Origin: Cryobacterium breve
Lineage (GTDB): Bacteria > Actinomycetota > Actinomycetes > Actinomycetales > Microbacteriaceae
Direction of reading: 5' to 3'
Length of the DNA: 64,000 nucleotides
Assembly: GCF_027594785.1 (NCBI RefSeq)
Contig: NZ_CP075584.1
Location: 310,001 to 374,000, forward strand
The notes under the pieces are model-generated. The model made no database searches. It was not told where the DNA came from and worked only from the letters and a program-made list of their open reading frames with translations. The first letter of the stretch is position 1; each line of letters begins with the position of its first letter. Shown in pieces: positions 2,247 to 61,589 of this stretch. The translations under genes were made by a program, and so were the position numbers.

Positions 2247-3081
2247 CTAGAGTCCGATCACGGAGTAGCGGCGTTCGATTCCCGCGGTGGCGTGACCCCA
2301 CTCACTGCCGGTGACACGTTCCTGATGGGCTTCCCAGGCGGATGCGTGCTCGAAGCGCTCCTCGACCTGCCACACCAGGGGATTGCTCGTCCGGGTGACG
2401 TTGAACGAAAGGCATCCCGGTTCGGCGCGGGTGAGGTCAAGGTGGAGTTGTAGATGGTCCCGGACAGTTCCCGCTTGGTCCTGGGTGAGACAAACCAGCT
2501 GCCCGCTGAGGGACACCTCGCCGCTGACGAGCCTCTTCTTCATCTTGTAATTGGTCAGCTGCACGCCAGCCGTCACTCGATTTTGTTCTGCCTCGACGGT
2601 GAATCCGGAGCGCTCAAAGAAGGGGCGGGCTGTAATGCTGACATCGGCAGTCAGGCTCCGTCAGCTGCTGTTGGCGCGCGCGGGCCTCCACATGGGCGAT
2701 CAGTTGCCATGCCACCCCGCGTCCTAGGTAGCGAGGGGCAACGAACATCATGTCGATATATCCCTCAGTGTCCACGTCGGAGAAACCCGCCGGCACACCA
2801 TCCACGGTTGCCACGTAACTGTTCCGTACCTGCCTCGCCGTATGCCACGTGGATAGCTCACGTGCTTCTGGCCGAGCCCACGCTCGAATCTGCTCCGGCG
2901 AGTAGTGTGCGGCAGCGGTTTCGGTCACTGCGGCAAGAAAGATGGCCAACGTGTCTGCGGCATCTCCGTGACCATATGGTCGAATGACAACGACCGGTCC
3001 ATCGGCACTTGTGTTCAACTCCACAGAATCAGCATCCCACTGCGACTGCACGGCGTGCCCGATGTCGCCAGGCGGCGACAC
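2247..3081 (-). CDS. GNAT acetyltransferase with in-frame antibiotic-biosynthesis-monooxygenase domain (frameshifted)
   Basis: The first frame (from 3081) encodes a GNAT N-acetyltransferase: VVVIRPYGHGDAADT near the start and an acetyl-CoA loop region FVAPRYLGRGVAWQLI. It runs out of frame at 2652-2658. The expected GNAT C-terminus (TADVSITARPFFERSGF, then AGVQLTNYKMKKRL) follows at once in the next frame. The downstream frame continues without a stop into an ABM-type monooxygenase domain (LTRAEPGCLSFNVT, VWQVEERF). Removing one base from CAGGCTC rejoins both halves into about 277 residues. The monooxygenase part could instead start separately at the internal ATG of MKKRL. A GTG at 3024 is an alternative start for the GNAT part. 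Substrates are unknown. Confidence 0.65.
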
Positions 3082-3134
3082 GCCGCATATGCGTTGCCCG
3101 GATCATCGTTCTGCGGGCCCCTAGGATCAGCACA

Positions 3135-4163
3135 ATGACGACACGCACCGGTCCACTGCGGCCCGCACTTGTGGCACGACGAGCAGTCTTCGGCGGAATC
3201 ATCGGTGTGCTCGCCGTTGTGGCCCTTTCGGGATGCTCATCGTCATCGTCATCGTCATTGTCATCGTCATCGGCAGTGACGAGCGGGGCGCCCAGTGCGC
3301 CCGATCTGAATGGTTCTCTGTTCGTTCAGGCTGAACCGTTTATACAGCTCACGCCAGGACAATGCACGGACGTCTCCTCGACGACAATCGTTTACGACAC
3401 CGTCGACATCCTGGACTGCGATAACCCGCACGGCAGCGAGGTCTACAACACATTCACCTTCCCTGCCGGCGATTACCCGTCGACATCTCAGCTCAATTCG
3501 GTCGGCGACGCGCGTTGCGGTGGTGCATTTGATTCCGGCGTCCCCAGTTCGCTGACGTACGTCTGGTTCAGTCCGACCGAAGAGGAGTGGGCCGCCGGGA
3601 ATCGGTTTGTCGCCTGTTTCGCGATCGACGCGAACAATCGCGCGCTCTCGGCTCCACTCGCCACACTCGCAAATGAGGGGCCTCTCAGTGCCTTCGATCG
3701 GGGCACCCTTGCGCCGGCACTCGGTCTGATCCTCGCGGCGACCGCGGGAATCGTTTTCGTGTCGTTCCTCGTGAGCTACCTCCTCTTTGCGGCGTCGCTT
3801 GCGAGTCTTTTCCGCAAAACGGGGATACCCGCCTGGAAGGCTTGGGTTCCCTTCGTGCAGACGTGGACGCTGCTGCGGCTCGGTGGTCAGAGCGGCAATT
3901 GGATGTGGCTGGGCTTTGTCCCTGGCGGCAGTGTCGTCTCCTCTGTGTTCATCTACATCGGCATGTACCGCATCGGGATCGCGTTCAGAAAAGACTCCGG
4001 GATGCTGGTGCTCGGCATATTCCTCCCGTTCGTTTGGGCGTTCATCCTTGGTGGCCGTGACGAGCAGTATGCGCCGGAGTTGCTCGCGTTACACGGGTAC
4101 CAGCCTCCCCTCGAAGGCTATGGCTCGACTCCTTCACGTGCCTCTGGTTTCGGAGACGATTGA
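3135..4163 (+). CDS. Lipoprotein with septum-formation-like domain and C-terminal membrane domain
   Basis: The ATG at 3135 begins a lipoprotein signal sequence: charged N-terminus, hydrophobic GGIIGVLAVVALSGC with lipobox LSGC, then a serine run. A cysteine-containing extracytoplasmic domain follows (about residues 60-185; PGQCTDVSS, DCDNPHGSEVYNTF, RFVACFAID), resembling the actinobacterial Septum_form family. The last 120 residues form several membrane segments (GLILAATAGIVFVSFLVSYL and after), resembling DUF5684-type domains. The fusion suggests an envelope protein anchored both by lipid and by membrane helices. The longer open frame starting at 3009 lacks a sensible N-terminus. Divergent from the GNAT gene. 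The role in cell division is inferred only from the domain name. Confidence 0.7.
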   Translation: MTTRTGPLRPALVARRAVFGGIIGVLAVVALSGCSSSSSSSLSSSSAVTSGAPSAPDLNGSLFVQAEPFIQLTPGQCTDVSSTTIVYDTVDILDCDNPHGSEVYNTFTFPAGDYPSTSQLNSVGDARCGGAFDSGVPSSLTYVWFSPTEEEWAAGNRFVACFAIDANNRALSAPLATLANEGPLSAFDRGTLAPALGLILAATAGIVFVSFLVSYLLFAASLASLFRKTGIPAWKAWVPFVQTWTLLRLGGQSGNWMWLGFVPGGSVVSSVFIYIGMYRIGIAFRKDSGMLVLGIFLPFVWAFILGGRDEQYAPELLALHGYQPPLEGYGSTPSRASGFGDD

Positions 4164-4194
4164 CCCCGAGACACCCCTCGCCTACGCTGGCACC

Positions 4195-59864: not shown

Positions 59865-59938
59865 CCCCTTTTCCACCGATGGGGCCGCCCTCCCGAGTGC
59901 AGCGCCGCGCACCTTCTCCGGGCGATCCCGGTTCGGGT

Positions 59939-60703
59939 CTAGTTCAGGTCCTGCACCGTGAGGGCTGCCGCACCGAGGATGCCGGCGTTGTTCTTGTGCG
60001 CGGCCGGGACGATCGGCGTGTGCAGGGAGAGCAGCGGCAGGAAGTCGTCGTGGTGCTTGGAGACGCCGCCGCCGACGACGAACAGGTCGGGGGAGAAGAG
60101 CGCCTCAAGGGTCGAGTAGTACTTCTGCAGCCGCGTGGCCCAGGCCGACCAGGAGAGGTTCTCCCGTTCCCGTGCCGAGTAGGAGGCGCGGGTCTCGTAG
60201 TCGACGCCGTCGATCTGCAGGTGACCGAGTTCGGTGTTGGGCACGAGGACCCCGTCGTTCAGGAGTGCCGTGCCGATGCCGGTGCCGAGCGTGGTCAGGA
60301 TCACCACGCCATCCACCCCCTGTGCTGCGCCGAATTGGGATTCGGCGTACCCCGCTGCGTCCGCGTCGTTCACGAACGTGACGGGCGTGCCGAGGCTTCT
60401 CGCGAACAGGGCGGAGGCCTCGAGGCCGATCCACTTCTTGGACACGTTGGCGGCGGACATCGTGCGGCCGTGCCTGACGACGGCGGGGAAACAGATTCCG
60501 ACGGGGACATCCGTCACTCCCGCCGCGGCACCGACCCTTTCGAGGATGACGCGGGTCGTTTCGACGATGTCGGCTGGACGGCCGCCCTTGGGTGTGGGGA
60601 GCTTGACCCGGTCGGTCAGCAGGGCGCCCGTCGCAAGATCGACGAGGGCCCCCTTGATTCCGGTCCCGCCGATGTCGATGCCGATGGCCGTCTGAGAATT
60701 CAT
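59939..60703 (-). CDS. ppgK: Polyphosphate glucokinase
   Basis: 254 residues of the ROK-like family. Phosphate-binding loop IGIDIGGTGIKGALVDL; catalytic-region FVNDADAAGYAE; TTLGTGIGTALLNDG; VGGGVSKHHDDFLPLL. The ELGHLQIDGVDYETRASYSAR segment and total length match actinobacterial PPGK, which phosphorylates glucose using polyphosphate or ATP. The next gene upstream is map, whose stop lies 17 bases before this start. Confidence 0.93.
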   Translation of the reverse strand: MNSQTAIGIDIGGTGIKGALVDLATGALLTDRVKLPTPKGGRPADIVETTRVILERVGAAAGVTDVPVGICFPAVVRHGRTMSAANVSKKWIGLEASALFARSLGTPVTFVNDADAAGYAESQFGAAQGVDGVVILTTLGTGIGTALLNDGVLVPNTELGHLQIDGVDYETRASYSARERENLSWSAWATRLQKYYSTLEALFSPDLFVVGGGVSKHHDDFLPLLSLHTPIVPAAHKNNAGILGAAALTVQDLN

Positions 60704-60720
60704 AGTAGAAAACCTATCGT

Positions 60721-61589
60721 CTAGGGAAGGGTCAAGACCTCTGCGCCGCGTTCGGTCACGACCAGGGTGTGCTCGAACTGGGCCGTGATGCTCTTATCCC
60801 TGGTCGTCACGGTCCAGTCATCCGCCCACAGGTCCCAGTCCGTGCCGCCGAGGGTGAGCATCGGTTCGATCGTGAAGACCATGCCGACCTCCATCACGGT
60901 GTCGTACTGCGGGGCAGAGTCGTAGTGGGGGACGATCAGGCCGGAGTGGAACGCCTCGCCGACGCCGTGGCCGGTGAAGTCCCGCACAACGCCGTAGCCG
61001 AACCGCTTCGCATACGACTCGATGGTCCGGCCGATCACGTTGACCTGGCGGCCGGGGGCGACGGCCTTGATGCCGCGGGCGAGCGCCTCCCTCGTGCGGT
61101 CGACGAGGAGCGTGACCGCCTCGCTCGCCTCGCCGACGATGAACGTGACGTTCGTGTCTCCATGGACGCCGTTCTTGGAAGGCGGTGATGTCGATGTTGA
61201 CGATGTCGCCGTTTTCGAGGACCGTCGTGTCGGGGATGCCGTGGCAGATGACCTCGTTCACCGAGCCTGCACAGCGACTTCGGGTAGCCCCGGTAGCCGA
61301 GCGTGGACGGGTATGCGTCGTGCTCGATCAGGAACTCGTGGCCGATGCGGTCGAGCTCTTCGGTGGTCACGCCGGGGCGGATTCCTCTGCCGACCGCCTC
61401 GATCGCCTCAGCGGCGATCCGGCCGGCCTCACGGATCAGTTCGATCTTCGCGGCGGGGTACACGTCGGAGCCGGTGAACGGCCTGGGAGCCGGGTGGCCG
61501 ACGTACTCCGGACGGGGGATCCTGGTGGGGACGGGACGGGTGGGGGAGACCGGGCCTGGCAACAGGTGACCGGCGGAATCCTTAGGCAT
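60721..61589 (-). CDS. map: Methionine aminopeptidase (two frameshifts)
   Basis: ATG 61589: MPKDSAGHLLPGPVSPTRPVP, an N-terminal extension typical of actinobacterial type Ic Map, then GRIAAEAIEAVGRGIRPGVTTEELD. Breaks at 61263-61269 (GAGCCTG) and near 61174-61182 (an extra base in TTGGAA). Repairing both gives SSVNEVICHGIPD, NIDITAFKNGVHGDTNVTF with two Asp ligands, TGHGVGEAFH with His, TIEPML with Glu and QFEHT with Glu: all five metal ligands. Repaired length is 288. Removes N-terminal methionine. Confidence 0.93.

Follow-up and report, generated by a model that had tools for sequence, protein, structure and literature searches.

Nanopore sequencing errors caused by DNA modification have been described at short motifs in Listeria, where 1533-5670 mismatches were reported in only 5 of 12 strains (PMC10687267). 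According to the portion of that report consulted, four of the five strains carry the methyltransferase-encoding mza system, and demodification by whole-genome amplification helped (PMC10687267). Here we describe single-base insertions at a short motif in a Cryobacterium genome (G000), which consists of 3,959,299 bases in one contig and has an estimated completeness of 83.4%, compared with 96-100% for 24 genomes of the same genus. The insertions came to light in a 64-kb stretch (G000:C1:310001-374000; hereafter the window), in which genes are interrupted at the heptamer GAGCCTG, or its complement CAGGCTC, where GAGCTG or CAGCTC is expected. Judged by comparison with related sequences, the frameshifts at these AGCT words are a consensus-sequence artefact, and we consider it very probable that they reflect a long-read sequencing error at a modified AGCT site and not real mutation.

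The initial annotation had attributed nine frameshifts to an extra base in this heptamer. All nine heptamers were found at the positions it gave, and we compared them with a sister genome (G005), the closest relative found, which has ~90% DNA identity to G000 and a KdpA that is 98% identical. Among named records, with those closest to G000 possibly not included, the G000 KdpA has its best match in a Cryobacterium. The extra base was present relative to G005 at 8 of the 8 sites that could be aligned; for the ninth, in the GNAT gene, the support comes from a domain match. A tenth proposed site, with the related word GAGGCTC, also proved to hold one extra base in the alignment. The sites, in window coordinates, are as follows.

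2652..2658, minus strand: GAGCCTG where a GNAT domain match ends, in frame 2614-3081 (minus); unalignable to G005
12325..12331, plus strand: GAGCCTG, one base more than G005, PadR-type regulator gene; alignment, with PadR found in the G005 gene
22336..22342, plus strand: GAGCCTG, one base more than G005, AAA ATPase gene (initially annotated coxD); alignment, with a MadB-like ATPase match below the curated cut-off
22954..22960, plus strand: GAGCCTG, one base more than G005, in a gene whose 102-aa G005 counterpart has no family match (initially annotated XdhC-YHS); alignment
26888..26894, minus strand: GAGCCTG, one base more than G005, xanthine dehydrogenase-type FAD-subunit gene (initially annotated coxM); alignment, with matches below the curated cut-offs
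29091..29097, plus strand: GAGCCTG, one base more than G005, ScyD/ScyE family gene; alignment and family match
33986..33992, minus strand: GAGCCTG, one base more than G005, kdpB; alignment, extra base missing in 81 of 82 other loci
59213..59219, minus strand: GAGCCTG, one base more than G005, zinc-ribbon gene (CdsZ-like, below the cut-off); alignment, extra base missing in 17 of 17 other genomes
59223..59229, no strand assigned: GAGGCTC, one base more than G005, palindromic GAGCTC context in the same zinc-ribbon gene as 59213; alignment and relatives
61263..61269, plus strand: GAGCCTG, one base more than G005, map (methionine aminopeptidase); alignment, extra base missing in 28 of 28 other genomes

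At 22954, 29091 and 59223 the G005 word is additionally altered by substitutions. The GNAT match stops at residue 141 of a 155-aa frame, at the codon adjoining the heptamer, and leaves the domain profile incomplete; the extra base at 2652 is thus supported by the end of the domain match and not by alignment. At the thresholds applied, positions 1-8562 of the window gave no alignment with the syntenic stretches of G005, and they represent a strain-specific, moved or diverged region.

Related genomes had been expected to carry the shorter form, and they do so at map, kdpB and 59213 in the numbers listed above and at 59223 in 18 of 18 genomes (scored by net length, with the gap inside the heptamer in 17 of the 18 and two of the 18 poorly aligned). 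A heptamer common to nine sites could also be real sequence, tolerated through programmed +1 frameshifting at GAGCCTG. However, the extra base is missing in relatives at the four places checked, and 12 aligned copies of GAGCCTG in the window, identical in G005, would need to be read without a shift; we give this explanation almost no credence. Because those 12 copies are identical, GAGCCTG itself is a normal word, lengthened only in some copies. The window contains 27 occurrences of GAGCCTG, a number reached by none of 100 shuffles (12.4 expected), and 34 of GAGCTG (44 expected).

We then aligned a longer stretch, 264 kb of G000, with 320 kb of G005 (220,941 aligned columns, with six off-diagonal alignment pieces excluded before indels were counted). 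Among one-base differences with clean flanks, a filter that removed 67 of 149 insertions and 41 of 75 deletions, 50 of 82 insertions in G000 were of the AGCT type; the mirror-image kind accounted for 1 of 34 deletions. AGCT was the most enriched 4-mer for insertions (48/687, p 2e-57). In the mirror test, which examined insertions in G005, C runs led and AGCT was not among the eight 4-mers listed. Errors of this kind were restricted to one short motif, though other scattered indels exist. In the window, G000 departs from G005 by one base away from the motif at 13995, 14343, 45143, 51111, 59868, 61178 and elsewhere, with several of these differences in short single-base runs; some may be ordinary homopolymer errors and some real or intergenic.

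Without flank filtering, and with only an added C or G counted, 58 AGCT sites in the 264 kb of G000 have an extra base. A few of these are doubtful: 225586 has AGGCT in G005 too, with the gap in a neighbouring G run, and 152081, 208952 and 224853 are poorly aligned. Outside the 58 stand 98103 and 107239, where another base was added in or at AGCT. The flanking bases had a strong bearing on the rate (calculated after setting aside 17 sites where the gaps were of another kind, and any site no more than 12 bases from the end of an alignment piece): about one in five GAGCTG/CAGCTC sites was lengthened (47/214), compared with 4 of 75 at CAGCTG and 7 of 133 at GAGCTC, and none of the 254 AGCT sites flanked by A or T had an extra base. 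Some copies of the word are thus unaffected, as the initial annotation had already remarked. In 47 of 47 cases at GAGCTG, the added base doubled the C when read on the GAG strand. Bases outside the hexamer also had an effect, both on the 3’ side (29/73 with C, GAGCTGC, vs 9/101 with G, GAGCTGG) and on the 5’ side (18/40 with G vs 2/32 with T), and in 88 single-base tests only directly adjacent positions passed the Bonferroni limit. A longer recognition motif, of bipartite or type III style, was rejected; the next best position, ten bases upstream, had p 0.005, unremarkable among 88 tests. Affected orientations showed no spatial clustering (21 runs, with 24 expected, sd 3.3).

An obvious alternative is that the insertions are real, produced by a mutational process, or by genome decay, in which a base is added at GAGCTG; they do stand in the assembled sequence and are missing from relatives. 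Their distribution among genes argues otherwise. The share in coding sequence, 54 of 58, matches that of intact sites in the corresponding flank class (344/364), and so selection has not acted on the extra bases. Insertions occur with hardly any mirror deletions. The count of genes affected, which rests on the 58, is 42 of the 188 called in the compared stretch. As named from the intact G005 genes, of which 20 of the 42 were scanned, they bear out the initial observation that housekeeping genes are broken: beside map and kdpB they include glnA, tkt and zwf, with repeated insertions in polA (2), glnE (3) and a GyrA/ParC-type (type II) topoisomerase (4). A cell with such damage to polA, tkt, zwf, the topoisomerase and others would hardly live. 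Real mutation is, in our judgement, extremely improbable.

The same words were counted across whole genomes. GAGCCTG occurs 1763 times in G000 and 956 times in G005, and GAGCTG 2967 and 4151 times, respectively. The ratio of GAGCCTG to GAGCTG is 0.594 in G000, compared with a mean of 0.218 in 30 other same-genus genomes (sd 0.039, maximum 0.351), which places G000 at z 9.7. With the G005 counts scaled to the length of G000, we estimate that ~850-900 extra bases are present genome-wide. GAGCCTG is also unequally divided between the strands of the G000 contig (794 vs 969, 4.2 sigma; the next of 31 genomes reached 1.7), and a backward control word is nearly even (440 vs 411). The imbalance is a hint that consensus building or read strand plays a part, because any bias tied to the replication strands should mostly even out over the contig, provided that it is a complete circle.

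These strand counts, together with the dependence on directly adjacent bases and the lack of a deamination footprint (see below), would suit an artefact that involves no DNA modification, in which GAGCTG k-mers are misread, whatever the DNA, by the software for basecalling, consensus or polishing. Genomes from the same pipeline should then share the excess, but a comparable ratio is not seen in any of the 30 others of the genus, whose platforms are not recorded. The sharp AGCT core, with its A/T-flanked sites unaffected, also fits a modified site better. We consider a software-only origin unlikely.

The initial annotation had suggested that base-calling fails systematically where a motif is modified. 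The artefact is supported by relatives, rates and coding share; modification is the part that we infer. AGCT sites in a (G/C)AGCT(G/C) context would carry a base modification in native DNA, the long-read consensus would misread the modified site and write one extra base, and the apparent frameshift would break genes on paper only. The methyltransferase check that had been proposed yielded a candidate C5-cytosine enzyme in G000. An intact 451-aa C5-cytosine methyltransferase is encoded at G000:C1:1356633-1357985 (PF00145, 211.6 bits vs a cut-off of 22; TIGR00675, 223 vs 100.65). The enzyme is 83% identical to two Cryobacterium proteins over 98-100% of its length, and G005 has no match to the C5-cytosine methyltransferase family. 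With no counterpart in G005, it is a possible writer of the modification. Searched against plasmids, it found a best match of 57% identity, without target information. The adjoining gene is weakly like MzaC; it does not reach the MzaC equivalog cut-off (104.5 bits vs 1500), and its 655-aa frame may be cut. Tentatively, and with somewhat less than even confidence, we suggest that an undescribed (G/C)AGCT(G/C)-modifying C5 methyltransferase lies in an MZA-like defence island, and that its methylome might be readable from consensus insertions.

Several observations weigh against a sequencing error at a modified site or against this enzyme as its writer. C5 methylases of one kind or another were found in four of the 15 further same-genus genomes searched (G002, G008, G010 and G013), which have ordinary motif ratios (0.195-0.262), and the motif is not in excess in nine genomes of the family that carry a 54-59% identical enzyme (ratios 0.08-0.24; sequencing platforms unrecorded). 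There is no C-to-T footprint of 5-methylcytosine (5mC) at AGCT, with 86 losses in the G000 lineage and 90 in that of G005. Strong type I-like N6_Mtase matches number three in G000 (G000:C1:196610, 983138 and 2477539), compared with one strong and one weak match in G005, which leaves more than one candidate for the writer. The two Eco57I matches of G000 both fall within its type I-like genes, and neither G000 nor G005 has a D12-class methylase. One of the 82 kdpB loci lacks the shorter form by net length. Finally, the Listeria and Klebsiella cases, in the text of those reports consulted, are base substitutions and not insertions (PMC10687267, PMC11610573).

Because the extra bases are most likely sequencing error, the apparent gene losses are not credible. 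If some 850-900 bases of its single contig are false, the genome is an unreliable basis for statements on gene loss, pseudogenes or completeness in the species. The ratio of lengthened to true word is a cheap, read-free test that singled out G000 among 31 genomes, and the motif indicates a modification worth assaying. A single-contig genome of the same family, G054 (completeness 86%), may be another assembly with systematic errors of this kind. The interest of these insertions is low for biology and modest for assembly quality control.

AluI-type methylation would modify the AGCT core on both strands. A/T-flanked AGCT is without insertions in G000, and so either the enzyme or the basecaller must be more selective than that. 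No paper joining GAGCTG with methylation and nanopore was found by whole-word match in the open-access papers searched. Propionibacterium freudenreichii, like G000 a high-G+C bacterium, has a 5mC motif, GRGCYC, that covers GAGCTC but does not include GAGCTG, the main site in G000 (PMC11649196, as far as the part consulted describes it). In Klebsiella, methylation-induced ambiguous positions in nanopore data are likewise motif-bound, show a read-strand bias and lead to erroneous assemblies; they are purine or pyrimidine swaps, however, and the main text never uses the term ‘insertion’ (PMC11610573). The Listeria errors described in the consulted part of PMC10687267 are mismatches at GCAGC or GCTGG, whereas those of G000 are single-base insertions at (G/C)AGCT(G/C), which suggests that indel-type errors, beyond mismatches, can be tied to one motif. 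The two share motif-bound errors (PMC10687267), and G000 has a methyltransferase beside a weakly MzaC-like gene.
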